NCBI GenBank assembly: GCA_964036665.1
Contig: OZ038526.1
Span: 14,570,001 to 14,634,000, forward strand
Origin: Gordius sp. MW1
Taxonomy: Eukaryota > Nematomorpha > Gordioida > Gordea > Gordiidae
Direction of reading: 5' to 3'
DNA: 64,000 nucleotides
Part shown: in pieces, positions 12,507-60,102 of the stretch
How positions within the stretch are numbered: position 1 is the stretch's first letter
Layout: each line of letters begins with the position of its first letter
Notes under the pieces: generated by a model
Seen by the model: the letters and a program-made list of their open reading frames with translations, nothing else
Databases searched by the model: none
Told to the model about the DNA's origin: nothing
Program-made: the position numbers and the translations under genes

Positions 12507-12530
12507 AGAGGTTTTAAGCTGGGAGAACTA
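12507..12530 (+). repeat. Internally deleted monomer (~179 bp), recurrent junction
   Basis: ACCACG joins directly to AGAGGTTTTAAGCTGGG, removing 166 bp that normally separate CCACG from AGAGG. Last base before the junction in each copy: 12506, 25089, 31812, 38876, 47330, 47854, 48377, 51313, 51837, 54773, 55297, 56510, 57034, 58937 and 59806. All use the same join and nearly all share the linked change GCTGGGAGAAC (GCTAGGAGAAC at 54787). In 47854, 48377, 51837, 55297 and 57034 one further G is lost (AGAGTTTTAAG). The shared junction argues for a single founding deletion. Confidence 0.92.
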
Positions 12531-12949
12531 TCATTTTGACAAAAGACAACGTTTTATTGTTGCGATTAGTTTGTTGTATCGCAACGTGAGTGCTTAATTT
12601 TTGAAAACTGCTCTATGCGATCATGATTTCAAAGTAATAGTCTTTAGATTCTGATAAATTTTTACTTGGGATCATAAAAACCACGTCTGAATACGACAAC
12701 TTTCATCGGATGAATACGGTTCAAAGAAAAATATGTGAAAAATTTTGAGGTAAAAATATTTATTTTTTTCGATTCTATGTGAAAGAGCATAAAAAAATAT
12801 ATAAAAGTAAGCCAATTTGAGAATCCTAATATCCTCGATTGACTTCCGAAAAGAGGTTTTAAGCTGCGAGAACTATCATTTGACAAAAGACAACGTTTTA
12901 TTGTTGCGATTAGTTTGTTGTATCGCAACGTGAGTGCTTAATTTTTGAA

Positions 12950-14330
12950 AACTGCTCTATGCGATCATGATTTACAAGTAATAGTTTTTAAATTCTGATA
13001 AATTTTTACTTGGGATCATAGAAACCACGTCTGAAAACGACAACTTTCATCGGATGAATACGGTTCAAAAAAAAATATGTGAAAAATTTTGAGGTAAAAT
13101 TTTTTATTTTTTTCGATTCTATGTGAAAGAGCATGAAAAAATATATAAAAGTAAGCCAATTTGACAATCCTTATATCCTCGATTGACTTCCGAAAAGAGG
13201 TTTTAAGCTGCAAGAACTATCATTTTGACAAAAGACAACGTTTTATTGTTGCGATTAGTTTGTTGTATCGCAACGTGAGTGCTTAATTTTTGAAAACTGC
13301 TCTATGCGATCATGATTTCAAAGTAATAGTTTTTAGATTCTGATAAATTTTTACTTGGGATCATAGAAACCACGTCTGAAAACGACAACTTTCATTGGAT
13401 GAATACGGTTCAAAGAAAAATATGTGAAAAATTTTGAGGTACAAAATATTTATTTTTTTTTAACCTATGTGAAAGAGCATGAAAAAATATATAAAAGTAA
13501 GCCAATTTGAGAATCCTATTATCCCCGATTGACTTCCGAAAAGAGGTTTTAAGCTGCGAGAACTATCATTTTGACAAAAGACAACGTTTTATCGTTGCGA
13601 TTAGTTTGTTGTATCGCAACGTGAGTGCTTAATTTTTGAAAACTGCTCTATGCGATCATGATTTCAAAGTAATAGTTTTTAGATTCTGATAAATTTTTAC
13701 TTGGGATCATAGAAACCACGTCTGAAAACGACAACTTTCATTGGATGAATACGGTTCAAAGAAAAATATGTGAAAAATTTTGAGGCAAAAATATTTATTT
13801 TTTTCGATTCTATGTGAAAGAGCATGAAAAAATATATAAAAGTAAGCCAATTTGAGAATCCTATTATCCTCGATTGATTTACGAAAAGAGGTTTTAAGCT
13901 GCGAGAACTATCATTTTGACAAAAGACAACGTTTTATTGTTGCGATTAGTTTGTTGTATCGCAACGTGAGTGCTTAATTTTTGAAAACTGCTCTATGCGA
14001 TCATGATTTCAAAGTAATAGTTTTTAGATTCTGATAAATTTTTACTTGGGATCATAAAAACCACGTCTGAATACGACAACTTTCATCGGATGAATACGGT
14101 TCAAAGAAAAATATGTGAAAAATTTTGAGGTAAAAATATTTATTTTTTTCGATTCTATGTGAAAGAGCATAAAAAAATATATAAAAGTAAGCCATTTTGA
14201 GAATCCTATTATCCTCGATTGACTTCCGAAAAGAGGTTTTAAGCTGCGAGAACTATCATTTTGACAAAATACAACGTTTTATTGTTGCGATTAGTTTGTT
14301 ATATCGCAACGTGAGTGCTTAATTTTTGAA
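12950..14330 (+). repeat. Dispersed copy of the 1380 bp tetramer
   Basis: Four monomers in the order seen later at 38.9-43.05 kb: one with TTCAAAAAAAAATATG and TTGACAATCC; one with TTGGATG and TTTTTTTTAACCTATG; one with GAGGCAAAAATATT and GATTTACG; and one with ATAAAAACCACGTCTGAATACG. A further copy lies at about 32.26-33.64 kb. Confidence 0.8.
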
Positions 14331-16699
14331 AACTGCTCTATGCGATCATGATTTCAAGTAATAGTTTTTAGATTCTGATAAATTTTTACTTGGGATCATA
14401 GAAACCACGTCTGAAAACGACAACTTTCATCGGGTGAATACAGTTGAAAGAAAAAATGCGAAAAATTTTTAGGTAAAAAAAATTATTTTTTGTTATTTTA
14501 TGTGAAAGAGCCTGAAAAAATATATAAAAGAAAGCCAATTTGAGAATCCTATTATCCTCGATTGACTTCCGAAAAGAGGTTTTAAGCTGCGAGAACTATC
14601 ATTTGACAAAAGACAACGTTTTATTGTTGCGATTAGTTTGTTGTATCGCAACGTGAGTGCTTAATTTTTGAAAACTGCTCTATGCGATCATGATTTCAAA
14701 GTAATAGTTTTTAGATTCTGATAAATTTTTACTTGGGATCATAGAAACCACGTCTGAAAACGACCTTTCATCGGATGAATACGGTTCAAAGAAAAATATG
14801 TGAAAATTTTTGAGGTAAAAATATTTATTTTTTTCGATTCTATATGAAAGAGCATGAAAAAATATATAAAAGTAAGCCAATTTGAGAATTCTATTATCCT
14901 TGATTGACTTCCGAAAAGAGGTTTTAAGCTGCGAGAACTATCATTTTGACAAAAGACAACGTTTTATTGTTGCGATTAGTTTGTTGTATCGCAACGTGAT
15001 TTCTTAATTTTTGAAAACTGCTCTATGCGATCATGATTTCAAAGTAGTAGTTTTTAAATTCTGATAAATTTTCACTTGGGATCATAGAAACCACGTCTGA
15101 AAACGACAACTTTCATCGGATGAATCCGGTTCAAAGAAAAATATGTGAAGAATTTTGAGGTAAAAATATTTATTTTTTTCGATTCTATGTGAAAGAGCAT
15201 GAAAAATATATAAAAGTAAGCTAATTTGAGAATCCTATTATCCTCGATTGACTTCCGAAAAGAGGTTTTAAGCTGCGAGAACTATCATTTTGACAAAAGA
15301 CAACGTTTTATTGTTGCGATTTGTTTGTTGTATCGCAACGTGAGTGCTTAATTTTTGAAAACTGCTCTATGCGATCATGATTTCAAAGTAATAGTTTTTA
15401 GATTCTGATAAATTTTTACATTTTATCATGGAAATCACGTCTTAAAACGACAACTTTCATCGGATGAATACAGTTGAAAGAAAAAATGCGAAAAATTTTT
15501 AGGTAAAAAAAATTATTTTTTGTTATTTAATGTGAAAGAGCCTGAAAAAATATATAAAAGAAAGCCGATTTGAGAATCCTATTATCCTCGATTGACTTCC
15601 GAAAAGAGGTTTTAAGCTGCGAGAATTATCATTTGACAAAAGACAACGTTTTATTGTTGCGATTAGTTTGTTGTATCGCAACGTGAGTGCTTAATTTTTG
15701 AAAACTGCTCTATGCGATCATGATTTCAAAGTAATAGTTTTTAAATTCTGATAAATTTTTACTTGGGATCATAGAAACCACGTCTGAAAACGACAACTTT
15801 CATCGGATGAATACGGTTCAAAGAAAAATATGGGAAAAATTTTGAGGTAAAATTTTTTATTTTTTTCGATTTTATGTGAAAGAGCATGAAAAAATATATA
15901 AAAGTAAGCCAAATTGACAATCCTATTATCCTCGATTGACTTCCGAAAAGAGGTTTTAAGCTGCGAGAACTATCATTTTGACAAAAGACAACGTTTTATT
16001 GTTGCGATTAGTTTGTTGTATCTCAACGTGAGTGCTTAATTTTTGAAAACTGCTCTATGCGATCATGATTTCAAAGTAATAGTTTTTAGATTCTGATAAA
16101 TTTTTACTTGGGATCATAGAAACCACGTCTGAAAACGACAACTTTCATCGGATGAATACGGTTCAAAGAAAAATATGTGAAAATTTTGAGGTAAAAATAT
16201 TTATTTTTTTCGATTCTATGTGAAAGAGCATAAAAAAATATATAAAAGTAGGCCAATTTGAGAATCCTATTATCCTCGATTGACTTCCGAAAAGAGGTTT
16301 TAAGCTGCGAGAACTATCATTTTGACAAAAGACAACGTTTTATTGTTGCGATTAGTTTGTTGTATGTATCGCAACGTGAGTGCTTAATTTTTGAAAACTG
16401 CTCTATGCGATCATGATTTCAAAGTAATAGTTTTTAGATTCTGATAAATTTTTACTTGGGATCATAGAAACCACGTCTGAAAACGACAACTTTCATCGGA
16501 TGAATACGGTTCAAAGAAAAATATGTGAAAAATTTTGAGGTAAAATTTTTTATTTTTTTCGATTCTATGTGAAAGAGCATGAAAAAATATATAAAAGTAA
16601 GCCAATTTGACAATCCTTATATCCTCGATTGACTTCCGAAAAGAGGTTTTAAGCTGCGAGAACTATCATTTTGACAAAAGACAACGTTTTATTGTTGCG

Positions 16700-19600
16700 A
16701 TTAGTTTGTTGTATCGCAACGTGAGTGCTGAATTTTTGCACACTGCTCTTTGCGATCATGATTTCAAAGTAATAGTTTTTAGATTCTGATAAATTTTTAC
16801 ATTTTATTATGGAAATCACGTCTTAAAACGACAACTTTCATCGGATGAATACAGTTGAAAGAAAAAATGCGAAAAATTTTTAGGTAAAAAAAATTATTTT
16901 TTGTTATTTTATGTGAAAGAGCCTGAAAAAATATATAAAAGAAAGCCAATTTGAGAATCCTATTATCCTCGATTGACTTCCGAAAAGAGGTTTTAAGCTG
17001 CGAGAACTATCATTTGACAAAAGACAACGTTTTATTGTTGCGATTAGTTTGTTGTATCGCAACGTGAGTGCTTAATTTTTGAAAACTGCTCTATGCGATC
17101 ATGATTTCAAAGTAATAGTTTTTAAATTCTGATAAATTTTTACTTGGGATCATAGCAACCACGTCTGAAAACGACAACTTTCATCGGATGAATACGGTTC
17201 AAAGAAAAATATGTGAAAAATTTTGAGGTAAAATTTTTTATTTTTTTCGATTCTATGTGAAAGAGCATGAAAAAATATATAAAAGTAAGCCAATTTGACA
17301 ATCCTTATATCCTCGATTGACTTCCGAAAAGAGGTTTTAAGCTGCGAGAACTATCATTTTGACAAAAGACAACGTTTTATTGTTGCGATTAGTTTGTTGT
17401 ATCGCAACGTGAGTGCTTAATTTTTGAAAACTGCTCTATGCGATCATGATTTCAAAGTAATAGTTTTTAGATTCTGATAAATTTTTACTTGGGATCATAG
17501 AAACCACGTCTGAAAACGACAACTTTCATCGGATGAATACGGTTCAAAGAAAAATATGTGAAAAATTTTGAGGGAAAATTTTTTATTTTTTTCGATTCTA
17601 TGTGAAAGAGCATGAAAAAATATATAAAAGTAAGCCAATTTGACAATCCTTATATCCTCGATTGACTTCCGAAAAGAGGTTTTAAGTTGCGAGAACTATC
17701 ATTTTGACAAAAGACAACGTTTTATTGTTGCGATTAGTTTGTTGTATCGCAACGTGAGTGCTTAATTTTTGAAAACTGCTCTATGCGATCATGATTTCAA
17801 AGTAATAGTTTTTAGATTCTGATAAATTTTTACTTGGGATCATAGAAACCACGTCTGAAAACGACAACTTTCATCGGATGAATACGGTTCAAAGAAAAAT
17901 ATGTGAAAAATTTTGAGGTACAAAATATTTATTTTTTTTGATTCTATGTGAAAGAGCATGAAAAAATATATAAAAGTAAGCCAATTTGAGAATCCTATTA
18001 TCCCCGATTGACTTCCGAAAAGAGGTTTTAAGCTGCGAGAACTATCATTTTGACAAAAGACAACGTTTTATTGTTGCGATTAGTTTGTTGTATCGCAACG
18101 TGAGTGCTTAATTTTTGAAAACTGCTCTATGCGATCATGATTTCAAAGTAATAGTTTTTAGATTCTGATAAATTTTTACTTGGGATCATAGAAACCACGT
18201 CTTAAAACGACAACTTTCATCGGATGAATACGGTTCAAAGAAAAATATGTGAAAAATTTTGAGGTAAAAATATTTATTTTTTTCGATTCTATGTGAAAGA
18301 GCATAAAAAAATATATAAAAGTAAGCCATTTTGAGAATCCTATTATCCTCGATTGACTTCCGAAAAGAGGTTTTAAGCTGCGAGAACTATCATTTTGACA
18401 AATACAACGTTTTATTGTTGCGATTAGTTTATTGTATCGCAACGTGAGTGCTTAATTTTTGAAAACTGCTCTATGCGATCATGATTTCCAAGTAATAGTT
18501 TTTAGATTCTGATAAATTTTTACATGGGCTCATAGAAACCACGTCTGAAAACGACAACTTTCATCGGATGAATACGGTTCAAAGAAAAATATGTGAAAAA
18601 TTTTGAGGTAAAAATATTTATTTTTATTGATTCTATGTGAAAGAGCATGAAAAAATATATAAAAGTAAGCCAATTTGAGAATCCTATTATCCTCGATTGA
18701 CTTCCGAAAAGAGGTTTTAAGCTGCGAGAACTATCATTTGACAAAAGACAACGTTTTATTCTTGCGATTAGTTTGTTGTATCGCAACGTGAGTGCTTAAT
18801 ATTTGAAAACTGCTCTATGCGATCATGATTTCAAAGTAATAGTTTTTAGATTCTGATAAATTTTTACTTGGGATCATAGAAACCACGTCTGAAAACGACA
18901 ACTTTCATTGGATGAATACGGTTCAAAGAAAAATATGTGAAAAATTTTGAGGCAAAAATATTTATTTTTTTCGATTCTATGTGAAAGAGCCTGAAAAAAT
19001 ATATAAAAGAAAGCCAATTTGAGAATCCTATTATCCTTGATTGACTTCCGAAAAGAGGTTTTAAGCTGCGAGAACTATCATTTTGACAAAAGACAACGTT
19101 TTATTGTTGCGATTAGTTTGTTGTATCGCAACGTGAGTGCTGAATTTTTGCACACTGCTCTTTGCGATCATGATTTCAAAGTAATAGTTTTTAGATTCTG
19201 ATAAATTTTTACATTTTATTATGGAAATCACGTCTTAAAACGACAACTTTCATCGGATGAATACAGTTGAAAGAAAAAATGCGAAAAATTTTTAGGTAAA
19301 AAAAATTATTTTTTGTTATTTTATGTGAAAGAGCCTGAAAAAATATATAAAAGAAAGCCAATTTGAGAATCCTATTATCCTCGATTGACTTCCGAAAAGA
19401 GGTTTTAAGCTGCGAGAACTATCATTTGACAAAAGACAACGTTTTATTGTTGCGATTAGTTTGTTGTATCGCAACGTGAGTGCTTAATTTTTGAAAACTG
19501 CTCTATGCGATCATGATTTCAAAGTAATAGTTTTTAAATTCTGATAAATTTTTACTTGGGATCATAGCAACCACGTCTGAAAACGACAACTTTCATCGGA

Positions 19601-22350
19601 TGAATACGGTTCAAAGAAAAATATGTGAAAAATTTTGAGGTAAAATTTTTTATTTTTTTCGATTCTATGTGAAAGAGCATGAAAAAATATATAAAAGTAA
19701 GCCAATTTGACAATCCTTATATCCTCGATTGACTTCCGAAAAGAGGTTTTAAGCTGCGAGAACTATCATTTTGACAAAAGACAACGTTTTATTGTTGCGA
19801 TTAGTTTGTTGTATCGCAACGTGAGTGCTTAATTTTTGAAAACTGCTCTATGCGATCATGATTTCAAAGTAATAGTTTTTAGATTCTGATAAATTTTTAC
19901 TTGGGATCATAGAAACCACGTCTGAAAACGACAACTTTCATCGGATGAATACGGTTCAAAGAAAAATATGTGAAAAATTTTGAGGGAAAATTTTTTATTT
20001 TTTTCGATTCTATGTGAAAGAGCATGAAAAAATATATAAAAGTAAGCCAATTTGACAATCCTTATATCCTCGATTGACTTCCGAAAAGAGGTTTTAAGTT
20101 GCGAGAACTATCATTTTGACAAAAGACAACGTTTTATTGTTGCGATTAGTTTGTTGTATCGCAACGTGAGTGCTTAATTTTTGAAAACTGCTCTATGCGA
20201 TCATGATTTCAAAGTAATAGTTTTTAGATTCTGATAAATTTTTACTTGGGATCATAGAAACCACGTCTGAAAACGACAACTTTCATCGGATGAATACGGT
20301 TCAAAGAAAAATATGTGAAAAATTTTGAGGTACAAAATATTTATTTTTTTTGATTCTATGTGAAAGAGCATGAAAAAATATATAAAAGTAAGCCAATTTG
20401 AGAATCCTATTATCCCCGATTGACTTCCGAAAAGAGGTTTTAAGCTGCGAGAACTATCATTTTGACAAAAGACAACGTTTTATTGTTGCGATTAGTTTGT
20501 TGTATCGCAACGTGAGTGCTTAATTTTTGAAAACTGCTCTATGCGATCATGATTTCAAAGTAATAGTTTTTAGATTCTGATAAATTTTTACTTGGGATCA
20601 TAGAAACCACGTCTTAAAACGACAACTTTCATCGGATGAATACGGTTCAAAGAAAAATATGTGAAAAATTTTGAGGTAAAAATATTTATTTTTTTCGATT
20701 CTATGTGAAAGAGCATAAAAAAATATATAAAAGTAAGCCATTTTGAGAATCCTATTATCCTCGATTGACTTCCGAAAAGAGGTTTTAAGCTGCGAGAACT
20801 ATCATTTTGACAAATACAACGTTTTATTGTTGCGATTAGTTTATTGTATCGCAACGTGAGTGCTTAATTTTTGAAAACTGCTCTATGCGATCATGATTTC
20901 CAAGTAATAGTTTTTAGATTCTGATAAATTTTTACATGGGCTCATAGAAACCACGTCTGAAAACGACAACTTTCATCGGATGAATACGGTTCAAAGAAAA
21001 ATATGTGAAAAATTTTGAGGTAAAAATATTTATTTTTATTGATTCTATGTGAAAGAGCATGAAAAAATATATAAAAGTAAGCCAATTTGAGAATCCTATT
21101 ATCCTCGATTGACTTCCGAAAAGAGGTTTTAAGCTGCGAGAACTATCATTTGACAAAAGACAACGTTTTATTCTTGCGATTAGTTTGTTGTATCGCAACG
21201 TGAGTGCTTAATATTTGAAAACTGCTCTATGCGATCATGATTTCAAAGTAATAGTTTTTAGATTCTGATAAATTTTTACTTGGGATCATAGAAACCACGT
21301 CTGAAAACGACAACTTTCATTGGATGAATACGGTTCAAAGAAAAATATGTGAAAAATTTTGAGGCAAAAATATTTATTTTTTTCGATTCTATGTGAAAGA
21401 GCCTGAAAAAATATATAAAAGAAAGCCAATTTGAGAATCCTATTATCCTTGATTGACTTCCGAAAAGAGGTTTTAAGCTGCGAGAACTATCATTTTGACA
21501 AAAGACAACGTTTTATTGTTGCGATTAGTTTGTTGTATCGCAACGTGAGTGCTGAATTTTTGCACACTGCTCTTTGCGATCATGATTTCAAAGTAATAGT
21601 TTTTAGATTCTGATAAATTTTTACATTTTATTATGGAAATCACGTCTTAAAACGACAACTTTCATCGGATGAATACAGTTGAAAGAAAAAATGCGAAAAA
21701 TTTTTAGGTAAAAAAAATTATTTTTTGTTATTTTATGTGAAAGAGCCTGAAAAAATATATAAAAGAAAGCCAATTTGAGAATCCTATTATCCTCGATTGA
21801 CTTCCGAAAAGAGGTTTTAAGCTGCGAGAACTATCATTTGACAAAAGACAACGTTTTATTGTTGCGATTAGTTTGTTGTATCGCAACGTGAGTGCTTAAT
21901 TTTTGAAAACTGCTCTATGCGATCATGATTTCAAAGTAATAGTTTTTAAATTCTGATAAATTTTTACTTGGGATCATAGCAACCACGTCTGAAAACGACA
22001 ACTTTCATCGGATGAATACGGTTCAAAGAAAAATATGTGAAAAATTTTGAGGTAAAATTTTTTATTTTTTTCGATTCTATGTGAAAGAGCATGAAAAAAT
22101 ATATAAAAGTAAGCCAATTTGACAATCCTTATATCCTCGATTGACTTCCGAAAAGAGGTTTTAAGCTGCGAGAACTATCATTTTGACAAAAGACAACGTT
22201 TTATTGTTGCGATTAGTTTGTTGTATCGCAACGTGAGTGCTTAATTTTTGAAAACTGCTCTATGCGATCATGATTTCAAAGTAATAGTTTTTAGATTCTG
22301 ATAAATTTTTACTTGGGATCATAGAAACCACGTCTGAAAACGACAACTTT
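16700..22350 (+). repeat. Heptameric higher-order repeat, 2412 bp period, ~2.3 copies
   Basis: Seven monomers (7 x ~344.6 bp) repeat with near identity. Markers: CATAGCAACCACG near 17153, 19565 and 21977; GAGGGAAAATTTT near 17570 and 19982; TACATGGGCTCATAG near 18522 and 20934; the GCACAC variant near 19019 and 21431. Copy 1 runs about 16.7-19.1 kb, copy 2 about 19.1-21.5 kb, and a partial third ends near 22.3 kb. Confidence 0.85.
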
Positions 22351-23690
22351 CATCGGATGAATACGGTTCAAAGAAAAATATGTGAAAAATTTTGAGGTAC
22401 AAAATATTTATTTTTTTTGATTCTATGTGAAAGAGCATGAAAAAATATATAAAAGTAAGCCAATTTGAGAATCCTATTATCCCCGATTGACTTCCGAAAA
22501 GAGGTTTTAACCTGCGAGAACTATCATTTTGACAAAAGACAACGTTTTATTGTTGCGATTAGTTTGTTGTATCGCAACGTGAGTGCTTAATTTTTGAAAA
22601 CTGCTCTATGCGATCATGATTTCAAAGTAATAGTTTTTAGATTCTGATAAATTTTTACTTGGGATCATAGAAACCACGTCTGAAAACGACAACTTTCATT
22701 GGATGAATACGGTTCAAAGAAAAATATGTGAAAAATTTTGAGGCAAAAATATTTATTTTTTTCGATTCTATGTGAAAGAGCATGAAAAAATATATAAAAG
22801 TAAGCCAATTTGAGAATCCTATTATCCTCGATTGATTTACGAAAAGAGGTTTTAAGCTGCGAGAACTATCATTTTGACAAAAGACAACGTTTTATTGTTG
22901 CGATTAGTTTGTTGTATCGCAACGTGAGTGCTTAATTTTTGAAAACTGCTCTATGCGATCATGATTTCAAAGTAATAGTTTTTAGATTCTGATAAATTTT
23001 TACTTGGGATCATAGAAACCACGTCTTAAAACGACAACTTTCATCGGATGAATACGGTTCAAAGAAAAATATGTGAAAAATTTTGAGGTAAAAATATTTA
23101 TTTTTTTCGATTCTATGTGAAAGAGCATAAAAAAATATATAAAAGTAAGCCATTTTGAGAATCCTATTATCCTCGATTGACTTCCGAAAAGAGGTTTTAA
23201 GCTGCGAGAACTATCATTTTGACAAAATACAACGTTTTATTGTTGCGATTAGTTTGTTGTATCGCAACGTGAGTGCTTAATTTTTGAAAACTGCTCTATG
23301 CGATCATGATTTCAAAGTAATAGTTTTTAGATTCTGATAAATTTTTACTTGGGCTCATAGAAACCACGTCTGAAAACGACAACTTTCATCGGATGAATAC
23401 GGTTCAAAGAAAAATATGTGAAAAATTTTGAGGTAAAAATATTTATTTTTTTTGATTCTATGTGAAAGAGCATGAAAAAATATATAAAAGTAAGCCAATT
23501 TGAGAATCCTATTATCCTCGATTGACTTCCGAAAAAAGGTTTTAAGCTGCGAGAACTATCATTTTGACAAAAGACAACGTTTTATTGTTGCGATTAGTTT
23601 GTTGTATCGCAACGTGAGTGCTGAATTTTTGCACACTGCTCTTTGCAATCATGATTTCAAAGTAATAGTTTTTAGATTCTGATAAATTTT
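19950..23690 (+). repeat. 3.7 kb duplicated block, copy 1 (mate near 25.64-29.38 kb)
   Basis: Offset is 5692 bp: AAGTTGCGAG (20096 and 25788), the CTTAAAACG monomer (20588 and 26280), TTGACAATCC (about 22121 and 27813), AACCTGCGAG (22509 and 28201) and the GAAAAAAGG GCACAC variant (23500 and 29192). It overlaps the second 2412 bp heptamer, so heptamer amplification predates at least one of the block copies. Within it, 21.9-23.3 kb also resembles 10.4-11.8 kb (offset ~11548). Confidence 0.82.
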
Positions 23691-23880
23691 TACTTGGGCT
23701 CATAGAAACCACGTCTGAAAACGACAACTTTCATCGGATGAATACGGTTCAAAGAAAAATATGTGAAAAATTTTGAGGTAAAAATATTTATTTTTTTTGA
23801 TTCTATGTGAAAGAGCATGAAAAAATATATAAAAGTAAGCCAATTTGAGAATCCTATTATCCTCGATTGACTTCCGAAAA
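23500..23880 (+). repeat. Chimeric monomer join
   Basis: The GCACAC variant here is followed at 23694 by TTGGGCTCATAG of the main type, not by the older-lineage half-monomer that follows its counterparts at 29192 and 30225. The next monomer repeats the rare GAAAAAAGG variant (23532 and 23877), exactly 345 bp on. This fits unequal exchange one monomer out of register. Confidence 0.65.
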
Positions 23881-24099
23881 AAGGTTTTAAGCTGCGAGAA
23901 CTATCATTTTGACAAAAGACAACGTTTTATTGTTGCGATTAGTTTGTTGTATCGCAACGTGAGTGCTTAATTTTTGAAAACTGCTCTATGCGATCATGAT
24001 TTCAAAGTAATAGTTCTTAAATTCTGATTAATTTTTACTTGGGATCATAGAAACCACGTCTGAAAACGACAACTTTCATCGGATGAATACGGTTCAAAG

Positions 24100-25440: not shown

Positions 25441-25639
25441 TTTAAGCTGCGAGAACTATCATTTGACAAAAGACAACGTTTTATTGTTGCGATTAGTTTG
25501 TTGTATCGCAACGTGAGTGCTTAATTTTTGAAAACTGCTCTATGCGATCATGATTTCAAAGTAATAGTTTTTAAATTCTGATAAATTTTTACTTGGGATC
25601 ATAGAAACCACGTCTGAAAACGACAACTTTCATCGGATG

Positions 25640-44760: not shown

Positions 44761-45949
44761 AGAACTATCATTTGACAAAAGACAACGTTTTATTGTTGCG
44801 ATTAGTTTGTTGTATCGCAACGTGAGTGCTTAATTTTTGAAAACTGCTCTATGCGATCATGATTTCAAAGTAATAGTTTTTAGATTCTGATAAATTTTTA
44901 CTTGGGATCATAAAAACCACGTCTGAATACGACAACTTTCATCGGATGAATACGGTTCAAAGAAAAATATGTGAAAAATTTCGAGGTAAAATATTTATTT
45001 TTTTCGATTCTATGTGAAAGAGCATGAAAAAATATATAAAAGTAAGCCAATTTGAGAATCCTATTATCCTCGATTGATTTACGAAAAGAGGTTTTAAGCT
45101 GCGAGAACTATCATTTTGACAAAAGACAACGTTTTATTGTTGCGATTAGTTTGTTGTATCGCAACGTGAGTGCTTAATTTTTGAAAACTGCTCTATGCGA
45201 TCATGATTTCAAAGTAATAGTTTTTAGATTCTGATAAATTTTTACTTGGGATCATAAAAACCACGTCTGAATACGACAACTTTCATCGGATGAATACTTC
45301 AAAGAAAAATATGTGAAAAATTTTGAGGTAAAAATATTTATTTTTTTCGATTCTATGTGAAAGAGCATAAAAAAATATATAAAAGTAAGCCAATTTGAGA
45401 ATCCTATTATCCTAGATTGACTTCCGAAAAGAGGTTTTAAGCTGCGAGAACTATCATTTGACAAAAGACAACGTTTTATTGTTGCGATTAGTTTGTTGTA
45501 TCGCAACGTGAGTGCTTAATTTTTGAAAACTGCTCTATGCGATCATGATTTCAAAGTAATAGTTTTTAAATTCTGATAAATTTCTACTTTGGATCATAGA
45601 AACCACGTCTGAAAACGACAACTTTCATCGGATGAATACGGTTCAAAGAAAAATATGTGAAAAATTTTGAGGTAAAATTTTTTATTTTTTTCGATTCTAT
45701 GTGAAAGAGCATGAAAAAATATATAAAAGTAAGCCAATTTGACAATCCTTATATCCTCGATTGACTTCCGAAAAGAGGTTTTAAGCTGCGAGAACTATCA
45801 TTTTGACAAAAGACAACGTTTTATTGTTGCGATTAGTTTGTTGTATCGCAACGTGAGTGCTTAATTTTTGAAAACTGCTCTATGCGATCATGATTTCAAA
45901 GTAATAGTTTTTAGATTCTGATAAATTTTTACTTGGGATCATAGAAACC

Positions 45950-48380: not shown

Positions 48381-49929
48381 GTTTTAAGCTGGGAGAACTA
48401 TCATTTTGACAAAAGACAACGTTTTATTGTTGCGATTAGTTTGTTGTATCGCAACGTGAGTGCTTAATTTTTGAAAACTGCTCTATGCGATCATGATTTC
48501 AAAGTAATAGTTTTTAGATTCTGATAAATTTTTACTTGGGATCATAGAAACCACGTCTGAAAACGACAACTTTCATTGGATGAATACGGTTCAAAGAAAA
48601 ATATGTGAAAAATTTTGAGGCAAAAATATTTATTTTTTTCGATTCTATGTGAAAGAGCATGAAAAAATATATAAAAGTAAGCCAATTTGAGAATCCTATT
48701 ATCCTCGATTGATTTACGAAAAGAGGTTTTAAGCTGCGAGAACTATCATTTTGACAAAAGACAACGTTTTATTGTTGCGATTAGTTTGTTGTATCGCAAC
48801 GTGAGTGCTTAATTTTTGAAAACTGCTCTATGCGATCATGATTTCAAAGTAATAGTTTTTAGATTCTGATAAATTTTTACTTGGGATCATAAAAACCACG
48901 TCTGAATACGACAACTTTCATCGGATGAATACGGTTCAAAGAAAAATATGTGAAAAATTTTGAGGTAAAAATATTTATTTTTTTCGATTCTATGTGAAAG
49001 AGCATAAAAAAATATATAAAAGTAAGCCAATTTGAGAATCCTATTATCCTCGATTGACTTTCGAAAAGAGGTTTTAAGCTGCGAGAACTATCATTTGACA
49101 AAAGACAACGTTTTATTGTTGCGATTAGTTTGTTGTATCGCAACGTGAGTGCTTAATTTTTGAAAACTGCTCTATGCGATCATGATTTCAAAGTAATAGT
49201 TTTTAAATTCTGATAAATTTTTACTTGGGATCATAGAAACCACGTCTGAAAACGACAACTTTCATCGGATGAATACGGTTCAAAGAAAAATATGTGAAAA
49301 ATTTTGAGGTAAAATTTTTTATTTTTTTCGATTCTATGTGAAAGAGCATGAAAAAATATATAAAAGTAAGCCAATTTGACAATCCTTATATCCTCGATTG
49401 ACTTCCGAAAAGAGGTTTTAAGCTGCGAGAACTATCATTTTGACAAAAGACAACGTTTTATTGTTGCGATTAGTTTGTTGTATCGCAACGTGAGTGCTTA
49501 ATTTTTGAAAACTGCTCTATGCAATCATGATTTCAAAGTAATAGTTTTTAGATTCTGATAAATTTTTACTTGGGATCATAGAAACCACGTCTGAAAACGA
49601 CAACTTTCATCGGATGAATACGGTTCAAAGAAAAATATGTGAAAAATTTTGAGGTACAAAATATTTATTTTTTTTGATTCTATGTGAAAGAGCATGAAAA
49701 AATATATAAAAGTAAGCCAATTTGAGAATCCTATTATCCCCGATTGACTTCCGAAAAGAGGTTTTAAGCTGCGAGAACTATCATTTTGACAAAAGACAAC
49801 GTTTTATTGTTGCGATTAGTTTGTTGTATCGCAACGTGAGTGCTTAATTTTTGAAAACTGCTCTATGCGATCATGATTTCAAAGTAATAGTTTTTAGATT
49901 CTGATAAATTTTTACTTGGGATCATAGAA

Positions 49930-52360
49930 ACCACGTCTGAAAACGACAACTTTCATCGGATGAATACGGTTCAAAGAAAAATATGTGAAAAATTTTGAGG
50001 TAAAATTTTTTATTTTTTTCGATTCTATGTGAAAGAGCATGAAAAAATATATAAAAGTAAGCCAATTTGACAATCCTTATATCCTCGATTGACTTCCGAA
50101 AAGAGGTTTTAAGCTGCGAGAACTATCATTTGACAAAAGACAACGTTTTATTGTTGCGATTAGTTTGTTGTATCGCAACGTGAGTGCTTAATTTTTGAAA
50201 ACTGCTCTATGCGATCATGATTTCAAAGTAATAGTTTTTAGATTCTGATAAATTTTTACTTGGGATCATAAAAACCACGTCTGAATACGACAACTTTCAT
50301 CGGATGAATACGGTTAAAAGAAAAATATGTGAAAAATTTCGAGGTAAAATATTTATTTTTTTCGATTCTATGTGAAAGAGCATGAAAAAATATATAAAAG
50401 TAAGCCAATTTGAGAATCCTATTATCCTCGATTGATTTACGAAAAGAGGTTTTAAGCTGCGAGAACTATCATTTTGACAAAAGACAACGTTTTATTGTTG
50501 CGATTAGTTTGTTGTATCGCAACGTGAGCGCTTAATTTTTGAAAACTGCTCTATGCGATCATGATTTCAAAGTAATAGTTTTTAGATTCTGATAAATTTT
50601 TACTTGGGATCATAGAAACCACGTCTTAAAACGACAACTTTCATCGGATGAATACGGTTCAAAGAAAAATATGTGAAAAATTTTGAGGTAAAAATATTTA
50701 TTTTTTTCGATTCTATGTGAAAGAGCATAAAAAAATATATAAAAGTAAGCCATTTTGAGAATCCTATTATCCTCGATTGACTTCCGAAAAGAGGTTTTAA
50801 GCTGCGAGAACTATCATTTTGACAAAATACAACGTTTTATTGTTGCGATTAGTTTGTTGTATCGCAACGTGAGTGCTTAATTTTTGAAAACTGCTCTATG
50901 CGATCATGATTTCAAAGTAATAGTTGTTAGATTCTGATAAATTTTTACTTGGGCTCATAGAAACCACGTCTGAAAACGACAACTTTCATCGGATGAATAC
51001 GGTTCAAAGAAAAATATGTTAAAAATTTTGAGGTAAAAATATTTATTTTTTTCGATTCTATGTGAAAGAGCATGAAAAAATATATAAAAGTAAGCCAATT
51101 TGAGAATCCTATTATCCTCGATTGACTTCCGAAAAGAGGTTTTGAGCTGCGAGAACTATCATTTTGACAAAAGACAACTTTTTATTGTTGCGATTAGTTT
51201 GTTGTATCGCAACGTGAGTGCTTAATTTTTGAAAACTGCTCTATGCGATCATGATTTCAAAGTAATAGTTTTTAGATTCTGATAAATTTTTACTTGGGAT
51301 CATAGAAACCACGAGAGGTTTTAAGCTGGGAGAACTATCATTTTGACAAAAGACAACGTTTTATTGTTGCGATTAGTTTGTTGTATCGCAACGTGAGTGC
51401 TTAATTTTTGAAAACTGCTCTATGCGATCATGATTTCAAAGTAATAGTTTTTAGATTCTGATAAATTTTTACTTGGGCTCATAGAAACCACGTCTGAAAA
51501 CGAAAACTTTCATCGGATGAATACGGTTCAAAGAAAAATATGTGAAAAATTTTGAGGTAAAAATATTTATTTTTGTCGATTCTATGTGAAAGAGCATGAA
51601 AAAATATATAAAAGTAAGCCAATTTGAGAATCCTATTATCCTCGATTGACTTCCGAAAAGAGGATTTGAGCTGCGAGAACTATCATTTTGACAAAAGACA
51701 ACGTTTTATTGTTGCGATTAGTTTGTTGTATCTCAACGTGAGTGCTTAATTTTTGAAAACTGCTCTATGCGATCATGATTTCAAAGTAATAGTTTTTAGA
51801 TTCTGATAAATTTTTACTTGGGATCATAGAAACCACGAGAGTTTTAAGCTGGGAGAACTATCATTTTGACAAAAGACAACGTTTTATTGTTGCGATTAGT
51901 TTGTTGTATCGCAACGTGAGTGCTTAATTTTTGAAAACTGCTCTATGCGATCATGATTTCAAAGTAATAGTTTTTAGATTCTGATAAATTTTTACTTGGG
52001 CTCATAGAAACCACGTCTGAAAACGAAAACTTTCATCGGATGAATACGGTTCAAAGAAAAATATGTGAAAAATTTTGAGGTAAAAATATTTATTTTTTTC
52101 GATTCTATGTGAAAGAGCATGAAAAAATATATAAAAGTAAGCCAATTTGAGAATCCTATTATCCTCGATTGACTTCCGAAAAGAGGATTTGAGCTGCGAG
52201 AACTATCATTTTGACAAAAGACAACGTTTTATTGTTGCGATTAGTTTGTTGTATCGCAACGTGAGTGCTTAATTTTTGAAAACTGCTCTATGCGATCATG
52301 ATTTCAAAGTAATAGTTTTTAGATTCTGATAAATTTTTACTTGGGCTCATAGAAACCACG
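49930..52360 (+). repeat. 2.4 kb duplicated block, copy 2 (mate near 45.95-48.38 kb)
   Basis: Same unit order as copy 1. Private changes include GGTTAAAAG near 50315, GTGAGCGC near 50524, TAGTTGTTAG near 50923 and TTTTTGTCGATTC near 51573. The block departs from its mate near 52360, where a small deletion gives CTGAAAACAACTTTC. Confidence 0.76.
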
Positions 52361-52575
52361 TCTGAAAACAACTTTCATCGGATGAATACGGTTCAAAGAA
52401 AAATATGTGAAAAATTTTGAGGTAAAAATATTTATTTTTTTCGATTCTATGTGAAAGAGCATGAAAAAATATATAAAAGTAAGCCAATTTGAGAATCCTA
52501 TTATCCCCGATTGACTTCCGAAAAGAGGTTTTAAGCTGCGAGAACTATCATTTTGACAAAAGACAACGTTTTATT

Positions 52576-52602
52576 GTTGCGATTAGTTTGTTGTATCGCA
52601 AC
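52576..52602. other. Conserved dyad in the satellite monomer (example copy)
   Basis: A perfect 8 bp inverted repeat, GTTGCGAT and ATCGCAAC, flanks an 11 nt T/G-rich loop. It could form a hairpin or cruciform, or bind a dimeric protein. It is present in nearly every monomer. Exceptions carry a changed arm (TATCTCAACG near 16020, 34638, 47747, 48271, 51730 and 58830; TATCTCTACG near 55191 and 56928; GCAAAGTG near 43783 and 44473; GTTGTGAT near 59860), a lost left arm (near 3097), or a loop lengthened by four bases (6881, 16359, 34977). Function is not shown. Confidence 0.7.
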
Positions 52603-52814
52603 GTGAGTGCTTAATTTTTGAAAACTGCTCTATGCGATCATGATTTCAAAGTAATAGTTTTTAGATTCTGATAAATTTTTACTTGGGATCATAGAAACCA
52701 CGTCTGAAAACGACAACTTTCATCGGATGAATACGGTTCAAAGAAAAATATGTGAAAAATTTTGAGGTAAAATTTTTTATTTTTTTCGATTCTATGTGAA
52801 AGAGCATAAAAAAA

Positions 52815-52824
52815 TATATAAAAG
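52815..52824 (+). promoter_or_regulatory. TATA-like box in the satellite monomer (example copy)
   Basis: TATATAAAAG matches the eukaryotic TATA-box consensus and recurs once per monomer at the same phase, on the plus strand, just before AAGCC. Transcription initiating about 30 bp downstream would yield satellite RNA. In such an AT-rich repeat a TATA match may be fortuitous, and no initiator or other promoter element was identified. The older lineage keeps it as TATATAAAAGAAAGCC. Confidence 0.25.
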
Positions 52825-54063
52825 TAAGCCAATTTGACAATCCTTATATCCTCGATTGACTTCCGAAAAGAGGTTTTAAGCTGCGAGAACTATCATTTTG
52901 ACAAAAGACAACGTTTTATTGTTGCGATTAGTTTGTTGTATCGCAACGTGAGTGCTTAATTTTTGAAAACTGCTCTATGCGATCATGATTTCAAAGTAAC
53001 AGTTTTTAGATTCTGATAAATTTTTACTTGGGATCATAGAAACCACGTCTGAAAACGACAACTTTCATCGGATGAATACGGTTCAAAGAAAAATATGTGA
53101 AAAATTTTGAGGTACAAAATATTTATTTTTTTTGATTCTATGTGAAAGAGCATGAAAAAATATATAAAAGTAAGCCAATTTGAGAATCCTATTATCCCCG
53201 ATTGACTTCCGAAAAGAGGTTTTAAGCTGCGAGAACTATCATTTTGACAAAAGACAACGTTTTATTGTTGCGATTAGTTTGTTGTATCGCAACGTGAGTG
53301 CTTAATTTTTGAAAACTGCTCTATGCGATCATGATTTCAAAGTAATAGTTTTTAGATTCTGATAAATTTTTACTTGGGATCATAAAAACCACGTCTGAAT
53401 ACGACAACTTTCATCGGATGAATACGGTTCAAAGAAAAATATGTGAAAAATTTCGAGGTAAAAATATTTATTTTTTTCGATTCTATGTGAAAGAGCATGA
53501 AAAAATATATAAAAGTAAGCCAATTTGAGAATCCTATTATCCTCGATTGATTTACGAAAAGAGGTTTTAAGCTGCGAGAACTATCATTTTGACAAAAGAC
53601 AACGTTTTATTGTTGCGATTAGTTTGTTGTATCGCAACGTGAGTGCTTAATTTTTGAAAACTGCTCTATGCGATCATGATTTCAAAGTAATAGTTTTTAG
53701 ATTCTGATAAATTTTTACTTGGGATCATAGAAACCACGTCTTAAAACGACAACTTTCATCGGATGAATACGGTTCAAAGAAAAATATGTGAAAAATTTTG
53801 AGGTAAAAATATTTATTTTTTTCGATTCTATGTGAAAGAGCATAAAAAAATATATAAAAGTAAGCCATTTTGAGAATCCTATTATCCTCGATTGACTTCC
53901 GAAAAGAGGTTTTAAGCTGCGAGAACTATCATTTTGACAAAATACAACGTTTTATTGTTGCGATTAGTTTGTTGTATCGCAACGTGAGTGCTTAATTTTT
54001 GAAAACTGCTCTATGCGATCATGATTTCAAAGTAATAGTTTTTAGATTCTGATAAATTTTTAC

Positions 54064-57000
54064 TTGGGCTCATAGAAACCACGTCTTAAAACGACAACTT
54101 TCATCGGATGAATACGGTTCAAAGAAAAATATGTGAAAAATTTTGAGGTAAAAATATTTATTTTTTTCGATTCTATGTGAAAGAGCATAAAAAAATATAT
54201 AAAAGTAAGCTATTTTGAGAATCCTATTATCCTCGATTGACTTCCGAAAAGAGGTTTTAAGCTGCGAGAACTATCATTTTGACAAAATACAACGTTTTAT
54301 TGTTGCGATTAGTTTGTTGTATCGCAACGTGAGTGCTTAATTTTTGAAAACTGCTCTATGCGATCATGATTTCAAAGTAATAGTTTTTAGATTCTGATAA
54401 ATTTTTACTTGGGCTCATAGAAACCACATCTGAAAACGACAACTTTCATCGGATGAATACGGTTCAAAGAAAAATATGTTAAAAATTTTGAGGTAAAAAT
54501 ATTTATTTTTTTCGATTCTATGTGAAAGAGCATGAAAAAATATATAAAAGTAAGCCAATTTGAGAATCCTATTATCCTCGATTGACTTCCGAAAAGAGGT
54601 TTTGAGCTGCGAGAACTATCATTTTGACAAAAGACAACTTTTTATTGTTGCGATTAGTTTGTTGTATCGCAACGTGAGTGCTTAATTTTTGAAAACTGCT
54701 CTATGCGATCATGATTTCAAAGTAATAGTTTTTAGATTCTGATAAATTTTTACTTGGGATCATAGAAACCACGAGAGGTTTTAAGCTAGGAGAACTATCA
54801 TTTTGACAAAAGACAACGTTTTATTATTGCGATTAGTTTGTTGTATCGCAACGTGAGTGCTTAATTTTTGAAAACTGCTCTATGCGATCATGATTTCAAA
54901 GTAATAGTTTTTAGATTCTGATAAATTTTTACTTGGGCTCATAGAAACCACGTCTGAAAACGAAAACTTTCATCGGATGAATACGGTTCAAAGAAAAATA
55001 TGTGAAAAATTTTGAGGTAAAAATATTTATTTTTTTCGATTCTATGTGAAAGAGCATGAAAAAATATATAAAAGTAAGCCAATTTGAGAATCCTATTATC
55101 CTCGATTGACTTCCGAAAAGAGGATTTGAGCTGCGAGAACTATCATTTTGACAAAAGACAACGTTTTATTGTTGCGATTAGTTTGTTGTATCTCTACGTG
55201 AGTGCTTAATTTTTGAAAACTGCTCTATGCGATCATGATTTCAAAGTAATAGTTTTTAGATTCTGATAAATTTTTACTTGGGATCATAGAAACCACGAGA
55301 GTTTTAAGCTGGGAGAACTATCATTTTGACAAAAGACAACGTTTTATTGTTGCGATTAGTTTGTTGTATCGCAACGTGAGTGCTTAATTTTTGAAAACTG
55401 CTCTATGCGATCATGATTTCAAAGTAATAGTTTTTAGATTCTGATAAATTTTTACTTGGGATCATAAAAACCACGTCTGAATACGACAACTTTCATCGGA
55501 TGAATACGGTTCAAAGAAAAATATGTGAAAAATTTTGAGGTAAAAATATTTATTTTTTTCGATTCTATGTGAAAGAGCATAAAAAAATATATAAAAGTAA
55601 GCCATTTTGAGAATCCTATTATCCTCGATTGACTTCCGAAAAGAGGTTTTAAGCTGCGAGAACTATCATTTTGACAAAAGACAACGTTTTATTGTTGCGA
55701 TTAGTTTGTTGTATCGCAACGTGAGTGCTTAATTTTTGAAAACTGCTCTATGCGATCATGATTTCAAAGTAATAGTTTTTAGATTCTGATAAATTTTTAC
55801 TTGGGCTCATAGAAACCACGTCTTAAAACGACAACTTTCATCGGATGAATACGGTTCAAAGAAAAATATGTGAAAAATTTTGAGGTAAAAATATTTATTT
55901 TTTTCGATTCTATGTGAAAGAGCATAAAAAAATATATAAAAGTAAGCTATTTTGAGAATCCTATTATCCTCGATTGACTTCCGAAAAGAGGTTTTAAGCT
56001 GCGAGAACTATCATTTTGACAAAATACAACGTTTTATTGTTGCGATTAGTTTGTTGTATCGCAACGTGAGTGCTTAATTTTTGAAAACTGCTCTATGCGA
56101 TCATGATTTCAAAGTAATAGTTTTTAGATTCTGATAAATTTTTACTTGGGCTCATAGAAACCACATCTGAAAACGACAACTTTCATCGGATGAATACGGT
56201 TCAAAGAAAAATATGTGAAAAATTTTGAGGTAAAAATATTTATTTTTTTCGATTCTATGTGAAAGAGCATGAAAAAATATATAAAAGTAAGCCAATTTGA
56301 GAATCCTATTATCCTCGATTGACTTCCGAAAAGAGGTTTTGAGCTGCGAGAACTATCATTTTGACAAAAGACAACTTTTTATTGTTGCGATTAGTTTGTT
56401 GTATCGCAACGTGAGTGCTTAATTTTTGAAAACTGCTCTATGCGATCATGATTTCAAAGTAATAGTTTTTAGATTCTGATAAATTTTTACTTGGGATCAT
56501 AGAAACCACGAGAGGTTTTAAGCTGGGAGAACTATCATTTTGACAAAAGACAACGTTTTATTATTGCGATTAGTTTGTTGTATCGCAACGTGAGTGCTTA
56601 ATTTTTGAAAACTGCTCTATGCGATCATGATTTCAAAGTAATAGTTTTTAGATTCTGATAAATTTTTACTTGGGCTCATAGAAACCACGTCTGAAAACGA
56701 AAACTTTCATCGGATGAATACGGTTCAAAGAAAAATATGTGAAAAATTTTGAGGTAAAAATATTTATTTTTTTCGATTCTATGTGAAAGAGCATGAAAAA
56801 ATATATAAAAGTAAGCCAATTTGAGAATCCTATTATCCTCGATTGACTTCCGAAAAGAGGATTTGAGCTGCGAGAACTATCATTTTGACAAAAGACAACG
56901 TTTTATTGTTGCGATTAGTTTGTTGTATCTCTACGTGAGTGCTTAATTTTTGAAAACTGCTCTATGCGATCATGATTTCAAAGTAATAGTTTTTAGATTC

Positions 57001-57537
57001 TGATAAATTTTTACTTGGGATCATAGAAACCACGAGAGTTTTAAGCTGGGAGAACTATCATTTTGACAAAAGACAACGTTTTATTGTTGCGATTAGTTTG
57101 TTGTATCGCAACGTGAGTGCTTAATTTTTGAAAACTGCTCTATGCGATCATGATTTCAAAGTAATAGTTTTTAGATTCTGATAAATTTTTACTTGGGATC
57201 ATAAAAACCACGTCTGAATACGACAACTTTCATCGGATGAATACGGTTCAAAGAAAAATATGTGAAAAATTTTGAGGTAAAAATATTTATTTTTTTCGAT
57301 TCTATGTGAAAGAGCATAAAAAAATATATAAAAGTAAGCCAATTTGAGAATCCTATTATCCTCGATTGACTTCCGAAAAGAGGTTTTAACCTGCGAGAAC
57401 TATCATTTTGACAAAAGACAACGTTTTATTGTTGCGATTAGTTTGTTGTATCGCAACGTGAGTGCTTAATTTTTGAAAACTGCTCTATGCGATCATGATT
57501 TCAAAGTAATAGTTTTCAGATTCTGATAAATTTTTAC
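54064..57537 (+). repeat. Six-unit 1737 bp higher-order repeat, two copies
   Basis: Spacing between successive TTGGG landmarks is 345, 345, 179, 345, 178 and 345, summing to 1737: four full and two deleted monomers. Rare variants recur 1737 bp apart: AAGCTATTTTGAG (54208 and 55945), CCACATCTG (about 54424 and 56161), TTATTATTGCG (about 54828 and 56565) and TATCTCTACG (about 55191 and 56928). Few differences are visible, for example GCTAGGAG versus GCTGGGAG and ATATGTTAAAA versus ATATGTGAAAA. Confidence 0.88.
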
Positions 57538-60102
57538 TTGGGATCATAGAAACCACGTCTGAAAACGACAACTTTCATCGGATGAACACGGTTCAAAGAA
57601 AAATATGTGAAATATTTTGAGGTAAAAATATTTATTTTTTTCGATTCTATGTGAAAGAGCATGAAAAAATATATAAAAGTAAGCCAATTTGAGAATCCTA
57701 TTATCCTCGATTGACTTCCGAAAAGAGGTTTTAAGCTGCGAGAACTATCATTTTGACAAAAGACAACGTTTGATTGTTGCGACTAGTTTGTTGTATCGCA
57801 ACGTGAGTGCTTAATTTTTGAAAACTGCTCTATGCGATCATGATTTCAAAGTAATAGTTTTTAGATTCTGATAAATTTTTACTTGGGATCATAGAAACCA
57901 CGTCTTAAAACGACAACTTTCATCGGATGAATACGGTTCAAAGAAAAATATGTGAAAAATTTTGAGGTAAAAATATTTATTTTTTTCGATTCTATGTGAA
58001 AGAGCATAAAAAAATATATAAAAGTAAGCCATTTTGAGAATCCTATTATCCTCGATTGACTTCCGAAAAGAGGTTTTAAGCTGCGAGAACTATCATTTTG
58101 ACAAAATACAACGTTTTATTGTTGCGATTAGTTTGTTGTATCGCAACGTGAGTGCTTAATTTTTGAAAACTGCTCTATGCGATCATGAATTCAAAGTAAT
58201 AGTTTTTAGATTCTGATAAATTTTTACTTGGGATCATAGAAACCACGTCTTAAAACGACAACTTTCATCGGATGAATACGGTTCAAAGAAAAATATGTGA
58301 AAAATTTTGAGGTAAAAATATTTATTTTTTTCGATTCTATGTGAAAGAGCATAAAAAAATATATAAAAGTAAGCCATTTTGAGAATCCTATTATCCTCGA
58401 TTGACTTCCGAAAAGAGGTTTTAAGCTGCGAGAACTATCATTTTGACAAAATACAACGTTTTATTGTTGCGATTAGTTTGTTGTATCGCAACGTGAGTGC
58501 TTAATTTTTGAAAACTGCTCTATGCGATCATGAATTCAAAGTAATAGTTTTTAGATTCTGATAAATTTTTACTTGGGCTCATAGAAACCACGTCTGAAAA
58601 CGACAACTTTCATCGGATGAATACGGTTCAAAGAAAAATATGTGAAAAATTTTGAGGTAAAAATATTTATTTTTTTCGATTCTATGTGAAAGAGCATGAA
58701 AAAATATATAAAAGTAAGCCAATTTGAGAATCCTATTATCCTCGATTGACTTCCGAAAAGAGGATTTGAGCTGCGAGAACTATCATTTTGACAAAAGACA
58801 ACGTTTTATTGTTGCGATTAGTTTGTTGTATCTCAACGTGAGTGCTTAATTTTTGAAAACTGCTCTATGCGATCATGATTTCAAAGTAATAGTTTTTAGA
58901 TTCTGATAAATTTTTACTTGGGATCATAGAAACCACGAGAGGTTTTAAGCTGGGAGAACTATCATTTTGACAAAAGACAACGTTTTATTGTTGCGATTAG
59001 TTTGTTGTATCGCAACGTGAGTGCTTAATTTTTGAAAACTGCTCTATGCGATCATGATTTCAAAGTAATAGTTCTTAGATTCTGATAAATTTTTACTTGG
59101 GATCATAAAAACCACGTCTGAATACGATAACTTTCATCGGATGAATACGGTTCAAAGAAAAATATGTGAAAAATTTTGAGGTAAAAATATTTATTTTTTT
59201 CGATTCTATGTGAAAGAGCATGAAAAAATATATAAAAGTAAGCCAATTTGAGAATCCTATTATCCTCGATTGACTTCCGAAAAGAGGTTTTAAGCTGCGA
59301 GAACTATCATTTTGACAAAAGACAACGTTTTATTGTTGCGATTAGTTTGTTGTATCGCAACGTGAGTGCTTAATTTTTGAAAACTGCTCTATGCGATCAT
59401 GATTTCAAAGTAATAGTTTTCAGATTCTGATAAATAATTACTTGGGATCATAGAAACCACGTCTGAAAACGACAACTTTCATCGGATGAACACGGTTCAA
59501 AGAAAAATATGTGAAAAATTTTGAGGTAAAAATATTTATTTTTTTCAATTCTATGTGAAAGAGCATGAAAAAATATATAAAAGTAAGCCAATTTGAGAAT
59601 CCTATTATCCTCGATTGACTTCCGAAAAGAGGTTTTAAGCTGCGAGAACTATCATTTTGACAAAAGACAACGTTTTATTGTTGCGATTAGTTTGTTGTAT
59701 CGCAACGTGAGTGCTTAATTTTTGAAAACTGCTCTATGCGATCATGATTTCAAAGTAATAGTTTTTAGATTCTGATAAATTTTTACTTGGGATCATAGAA
59801 ACCACGAGAGGTTTTAAGCTGGGAGAACTATCATTTTGACAAAAGACAACGTTTTATTGTTGTGATTAGTTTGTTGTATCGCAACGTGAGTGCTTAATTT
59901 TTGAAAACTGCTCTATGCGATCATGATTTCAAAGTAATAGTTTTTAGATTCTGATAAATTTTTACTTGGGATCATAAAAACCACGTCTGAATACGACAAC
60001 TTTCATCGGATGAATACGGTTCAAAGAAAAATATGTGAAAAATTTTGAGGTAAAAATATTTATTTTTTTCGATTCTATGTGAAAGAGCATGTATATATAA
60101 AA
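57538..60102 (+). repeat. Right end of the main satellite block
   Basis: Main-type monomers with two deleted units (junctions 58937 and 59806). Two adjacent monomers share an EcoRI-creating CATGAATTC change (about 58186 and 58531), so they arose by single-monomer duplication. Units with TTTTCAGATTCTG and GATGAACACGG (about 57510 and 59417) resemble the first unit to the right of the interruption (63190-63270). The last monomer is intact to AGAGCATG at 60091, then reads TATATATAAAA in place of AAAAAATATATAAAA. Confidence 0.85.
60098..60102. repeat. Candidate target-site duplication, left
   Basis: TAAAA immediately left of the interruption matches 63007-63011 on the right and corresponds to the normal TATATAAAAG box of the monomer. 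It is low-complexity, so coincidence is possible. Confidence 0.35.

Follow-up and report, generated by a model that had tools for sequence, protein, structure and literature searches.

A stretch of 64,000 nt on contig C8 of the Gordius sp. MW1 genome (C8:14570001-14634000, hereafter the window) is largely occupied by a 345-bp satellite, in which 15 monomers lack the same 166 bp. We put the probability at about 85% that a single deletion in the C8 satellite gave rise to these short units, and that they were then multiplied passively by the duplication of blocks of monomers. The genome comprises 211.8 Mb in 12 contigs, and the 220 kb lying to the right of the window were joined onto it to give a contiguous 284-kb stretch, from which the counts of short and full monomers are taken.

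The deletion and its copies on C8

The deletion removes consensus positions 113-278 and leaves a unit of 179 bp. A first-pass annotation of the window had reported 15 junctions of shortened monomers, all of which were found where it had placed them. The junction reads CCACGAGAGG in ten units (starting at 12502, 25085, 31808, 38872, 47326, 51309, 54769, 56506, 58933 and 59802) and CCACGAGAGT, the form with a single-G loss, in the other five (47850, 48373, 51833, 55293 and 57030); the expected number of chance occurrences of the exact junction 10-mer is 0.01. The five copies with the additional G loss, also part of the original description, all lie inside the window. A linked site lies 16 bp to the right of the junction, at consensus position 294, and GCTGGGAG follows the junction in 14 of the 15 units. 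The remaining unit, at 54662, keeps the linked G and has an extra change one base away, so that GCTGGGAG is not read; the linkage, previously given as nearly general, is therefore complete in the window. The irregular spacing of the copies was also correctly noted, with the correction that it goes with duplicated multi-monomer blocks of differing sizes, whereas the extent of 15 copies over 47 kb holds for the window but not for the family, which continues to the right of it.

In the 284-kb stretch 105 of the 849 monomers (12.4%) are short, measuring 171-181 bp, and 744 are full. The exact junction is present in all 105, and neither a short monomer without it nor a junction outside a short monomer was found. 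The other anchor intervals are 333-350 bp long, with the exception of one of 317 bp and of those that contain one of the three insertions, so the 166-bp loss is the only large monomer deletion in this stretch. At 64844-65201 and 67101-67637 of the stretch, two and three short units, respectively, stand side by side, indicating that a 179-bp tandem sub-array can form.

Genome-wide, an exact 20-base junction search returned 95 matches, every one on C8 between 14.582 and 14.906 Mb. A 31-base junction pattern with up to three mismatches gave 102 matches, the 100 among the matches listed being all on C8, and the pattern of the single-G-loss form gave five, all in the window. The pattern searches thus total 107 junctions (102 + 5), 105 of which are placed at 14.58-14.85 Mb of C8; the exact 20-base search adds two junctions at 14.884 and 14.906 Mb, which are probably the two unplaced 31-base matches. 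These genome-wide counts are lower bounds for repeats, and copies with other insertions or deletions at the junction escape the patterns.

Origin of the deletion

All 105 short monomers carry a derived base at the linked site (G in 103, A in two), and G at this position occurs in none of the 744 full ones. Together with the identical junction in every copy, this agrees with the single deletion event proposed in the first-pass annotation; the differing breakpoints that it had named as a sign of independent deletions were sought among the 105 units and none was seen. On these sequence grounds the single origin of the deletion is well supported. The exact breakpoints in all copies would also fit a strict hot spot with repeated loss of the same 166 bp; however, such a recurrent loss has to face the absence of the linked G from the nearby full monomers when every short unit carries it or has mutated further, the restriction of every placed junction to C8 when the satellite itself is on at least six contigs, and a consensus without microhomology to guide repeats of the event. 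We therefore hold recurrence to be extremely improbable.

The short units also contain a record of their own history, in line with the internal phylogeny that had been suggested for them, since nested derived changes were found among the window units (all on the forward strand). In one series, G8T stands alone in the 179-bp unit 58826..59004, basal to the single-G-loss group; it is joined by the single-G loss in three 178-bp units (47743..47920, 48266..48443 and 51726..51903), and A10T is added in two more of 178 bp (55186..55363 and 56923..57100). A second lineage, characterized by T29G with a 4-bp loss, includes the 175-bp units 12399..12573 (junction between 12506 and 12507), 24982..25156 and 31705..31879, followed by 38769..38943, also 175 bp, where T26G has been added. 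G331A is common to the 179-bp units 54662..54840, which also has G293A beside the linked G, and 56399..56577. The remaining three units are likewise of 179 bp: 47219..47397 and 51202..51380 belong to the commonest (founder) type, and 59695..59873 carries C335T. Over the whole 284-kb stretch the 105 short units amount to 45 distinct sequences, and 32 of the 105 are identical to one another.

A tree built on the 179 retained bases needs seven changes between the short and full labels, against at least 37 in 100 shuffles, and unites 38 of the 44 distinct short sequences in a clade free of full ones. Several observations count against a single origin. The support of that pure short clade is only 0.18, and when position 294 is left out the tree needs 31 label changes (random mean 41, minimum 37) and its purest short clade has six sequences. 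The short units are scattered in this second tree because their founder haplotype differs little from the array consensus, and monophyly in the tree thus rests on position 294 rather than on background single-nucleotide polymorphisms (SNPs). The monophyly check proposed earlier thus showed the short units as clustered with the linked site and as scattered without it. Moreover, the deletion lineage is not alone in having the linked G. Full-length monomers elsewhere in the genome also carry it, 85 in all, of which 81 are on other contigs and four on C8 beyond 14.57-14.91 Mb; the G may be older than the deletion, or may have arisen more than once.

Spread of the short units

Comparison of flanks with block duplications, a check suggested at the outset, showed that each of the 15 window units lies in a block of 4-10 monomers that it has in common with another short unit. 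The units at 51202 and 51726, for example, share one 8-monomer block with those at 47219 and 47743, respectively, 3983 bp apart, and a 7-monomer tandem block links 54662 with 56399 and 55186 with 56923 at a distance of 1737 bp. The 284-kb stretch contains 56 duplicated blocks of at least six monomers; the longest tandem one spans 49 monomers, with a shift of 15.2 kb, a difference of 0.07% and six short units per copy. At less than 1.2% difference, 91 of the 105 short units share a block of at least three monomers with another copy, compared to 19-35 in five shuffles, and 72 share one of at least five monomers, compared to none of the 105 in each of five shuffles. Full monomers behave alike, 523 of the 744 sharing a block of at least five. 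With the threshold lowered to 0.6% the counts of short units become 72 and 51.

We then considered pairs of monomers with matched neighbours on both sides, which bear on the possibility that the short monomer spread singly, pasted into full monomers by gene conversion. With two monomers matched per side at less than 0.9%, there are 60 ordered short-short pairs, involving 38 of the 105 short units, and short-full pairs are absent. Over the thresholds from 0.3 to 1.2%, two matched monomers per side give 16-33 unordered short-short pairs, and with either two or three per side the short-full count is zero at every threshold in this range. The use of the deletion as a tracer, as had been claimed for it, is thus workable: under this matching a short unit never stands opposite a full one up to 1.2%. 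Eight short-full pairs do appear with two monomers per side at 1.5%, and with one monomer per side their number is 0, 0, 10, 116 and 590 at 0.3, 0.6, 0.9, 1.2 and 1.5%, respectively. These looser counts speak for single-unit spread, but at loose one-monomer thresholds chance matching of flanks becomes common, and up to 0.6% there are none. Two matched monomers per side are also found in 246 full-full pairs; the middle unit differs by at least 0.9% in 12 of these and by more than 2% in none, which likewise argues against conversion of single units. The gain or loss of a lone short unit was seen in two alignments, probably representing one event, and there within runs of adjacent short units.

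Three results fit less well with the duplication of blocks. First, 14 of the 105 short units have no shared block of at least three monomers at less than 1.2%. Second, of 164 blocks of at least four monomers only 20 are in tandem, and the 144 others are dispersed, not abutting, and are less directly explained by adjacent unequal exchange; many of them may be pieces of older tandem copies, and copying over a distance within the array is possible. Third, when pairs at least 25 monomers apart are averaged, the flanks approach background about one monomer away, and the average over all copies shows the same. This last observation speaks for spread by single units: older copies no longer show their block, and old moves of single units may be among them. 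On balance, duplication of blocks is favoured over conversion of single units, and the latter appears unlikely.

A directional spread was considered and rejected: shared flanks average 5.9 monomers on the left and 5.4 on the right, a slight difference, and among the 103 of 105 short units with a partner the left flank is the longer in 46 and the right in 41. Block duplication is also seen in monomers of full length, a recent tandem block of nine monomers without short units, with a 2412-bp shift and a mean monomer difference of 0.0, being present at 16709..22220 on the forward strand.

A further copying event involves a non-satellite insertion in the array at 60093..63006 (no strand assigned), in which Tandem Repeats Finder detected inner repeats of about 110 and 127 bp. 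A second copy, 98.4% identical, lies 176 kb away at 235656 of the 284-kb stretch, with matching flanks that include short units; the left flank of unit 59695..59873, together with the adjoining insertion, thus recurs 176 kb rightward. Alignment of the two copies, with a little flanking satellite, over 3233 bases shows 27 substitutions (0.84%) and eight gaps, and the two matched pairs of short units beside them differ by 1.1% each, suggesting that the short variant is probably older than the copying of the insertion. The divergence between the copies also bears on whether the short units could be mis-assembled or collapsed repeats. The evidence presented here comes from the assembly, and one tandem duplication of 15 kb is 99.93% identical, as might be seen in an artefact; nevertheless, the substitutions between the two insertions that were copied with short units, and a junction exact to the base in 105 copies with 45 distinct sequences and many different flanks, make an assembly error hardly credible. 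An Rfam search of the 60093-63006 insertion gave no match at E-values up to 0.1. A different insertion is present at 169755 of the 284-kb stretch.

Variation on short and full monomers

The size of the short unit invites another explanation, since 179 bp is about the length of one nucleosome repeat and 345 bp about that of two: a half-size, one-nucleosome centromeric monomer could have been spread by drive or selection, gaining copies faster, for instance through a better phasing of centromeric nucleosomes. Besides this arithmetic, the low diversity of the short units speaks for it. Over the same bases, short-short pairs differ by 1.15% and full-full pairs by 2.66%, in addition to the 32 identical units mentioned above; and diversity within carriers is 1.2% for the deletion and 0.7-4.0% for 20 standing SNPs, only four of which lie lower than the deletion and 16 higher. 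Other measures, however, set the short unit among ordinary variants. At 12.4% the deletion ranks only about eighth in frequency among the 643 variants, and no enrichment was found in recent tandem blocks, where 41 of 350 monomers are short (11.7%) compared to the overall 12.4%. Nearby standing SNPs, within 60 bp, are nearly excluded from short units (two seen, 97.7 expected), but nine of the 20 ordinary SNPs parallel this with less than half of the expected company (e.g. 0 of 29.4 and 10 of 81.9), and 11 belong to linked groups. These patterns of company, in the deletion as in the SNPs, suggest that the array is made up of distinct monomer haplotypes, of which the short unit would be one of the younger. 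Seemingly, then, the short unit is not special, and we judge its spread by a faster gain of copies to be very unlikely; if true, the window would capture a new centromeric repeat early in its rise.

Along the sequence, short units reach 0.1-0.6 of the full-monomer diversity up to about 50 bp from the junction, while in neighbouring monomers diversity is mixed, at about 0.3-2.5 of that level. At the far left end of the short unit it exceeds the background (1.8), through changes such as A11T.

Two other views of the unit were rejected. The 345-bp monomer does not appear to be a dimer of a 179-bp-like unit, its halves being not detectably related (local score 19, with the 95th percentile of shuffled sequences at 24), and a short ancestral unit is unlikely given that the placed junctions are on C8 only.

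The satellite array, its inverted repeat and other genome features

In the window, Tandem Repeats Finder reported two tracts of the 345-bp satellite: one runs from position 1 to about 59.8 kb, with breaks at several deletion junctions, and the other from 63.0 kb onwards to the end. The head-to-tail array on the forward strand covers 1..60090, resumes at about 63007 and extends to the right of the window, its left edge lying outside the stretch. The 849 monomers of the 284-kb stretch have a consensus of 345 bp and a mean pairwise difference of 3.0%, and their head-to-tail arrangement, near-constant length and high identity are those of a tandem satellite. Multi-monomer blocks more alike than their neighbours reveal local, non-uniform higher-order duplication. 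A regular higher-order repeat (HOR) of the alpha-satellite type was not found, as no lag dominates among lags of 1-59 monomers in the 284-kb stretch; the mean difference is nearly flat over these lags (2.76-3.02%), with minima at lag 12 (2.77%) and lag 47 (2.76%).

Exact matches to a 65-base piece of the monomer number 6764 genome-wide and 437 in the 284-kb stretch; if the ratio of such pieces to monomers in the stretch holds elsewhere, the satellite would comprise about 13,000 monomers, or some 4.5 Mb. A genome search found a variant of the satellite on C1, C3, C5, C6, C7 and C8 at about 8-17 Mb, positions that can be compared with total length for C8 (37.4 Mb) only. This distribution over six contigs suggests that the 345-bp satellite is probably centromeric or pericentromeric. 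A literature search, judged from its listings, brought up no 345-bp centromeric satellite that we recognised as this one.

The monomer boundary carries an 8-bp inverted repeat, GTTGCGAT...ATCGCAAC, with an 11-base loop (consensus 331-338 and 5-12; e.g. window 12384-12410). It is present in the consensus and in the commonest short unit, and its folding as single-stranded DNA is better than that of shuffled sequences (z -3.6). An intact repeat is kept by 665 of the 744 full monomers and by 75 of the 105 short ones, and the diversity of the arms compared to elsewhere is 3.3% vs 1.0% in short and 1.5% vs 2.9% in full monomers. A relaxed constraint on the repeat in short units was considered, in a test prompted by changes in the window that were seen to fall in the arms, and was rejected, as the excess is not significant when distinct changes are counted (5 of 47, p 0.61); the arms hold four of the 22 changes present in at least two short copies (p 0.13) and two of the six present in at least four (p 0.09). 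The inverted repeat may be a protein-binding or cruciform site.

Outside the satellite, large tandem clusters of histone genes were observed on C2 at 12.99-13.21 and 15.18-15.28 Mb, their units measuring about 5.2 and 6.3 kb; the former cluster has internal switches of orientation. These clusters and an H3 of animal-like sequence suggest an animal genome. A search for the RuBisCO small chain gave no match, and one for a cuticle family gave none either, nor did it give any in its controls. Telomere-type runs are almost lacking from the whole genome (TTTAGGG x4 in no place, TTAGG x5 in two, TCAGG x5 in none), so that telomeres are either absent from the assembly or of another kind.

Discussion

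As far as the sequence allows, the results support a 166-bp deletion that arose once within a 345-bp monomer on C8. An end-joining type of break repair is its likely origin, because the junction has no microhomology in the consensus. The short unit would then have been multiplied passively, by in-register duplication of blocks of several to tens of monomers, either adjacent or farther away within the array, that carried the short unit plus its neighbours; such copying in blocks is seen for most copies. These duplications were probably driven by unequal sister exchange or break-induced replication, and later single mutations on the copies would have left the nested record of spread. The model needs no special role for the short unit.

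In Arabidopsis, the CEN159 repeat reportedly derived from CEN178 by deletion. The C8 family resembles CEN159 in being a minority family of shorter repeats beside the main repeat, there the centromeric CEN178 (PMC10199239). Among human alpha satellites, HOR variants are described as having single origins, some of them by deletion, as having spread within the array amid older units, and as serving to estimate array turnover (PMC11062924). Single-origin deletion variants that have spread and mixed with older units are common to both systems; in the human variants described there, however, whole monomers were lost from the HOR (PMC11062924), whereas here about half of one monomer is missing, from an array that has no dominant higher-order lag and is known from one assembly. 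In the account of maize CEN10, an adjacent duplication of a 10-monomer CentC block produced a local higher-order repeat, and a repair deletion in the array produced a new CentC variant (PMC4806543). Adjacent block duplications and a deletion-made variant are thus found in maize too, but the maize deletion proceeded through homology between CentC units (PMC4806543), while the C8 junction lies within one monomer, has no microhomology and has been multiplied to about 107 copies. Among the proposed ways in which the length of satellite arrays changes are both break-induced replication and unequal exchange (PMC11034957). The in-register copying of multi-monomer blocks would be expected from either.

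The C8 deletion family is therefore a clear new example of known satellite behaviour, clean but ordinary. Its value is that a deletion of single origin is a nearly unambiguous marker, by which copies can be traced where SNPs recur or are exchanged, and which gives a direct test of block copying versus single-unit conversion in a non-model satellite. The test favours blocks, an outcome that agrees with current views of satellite turnover and overturns none of them.

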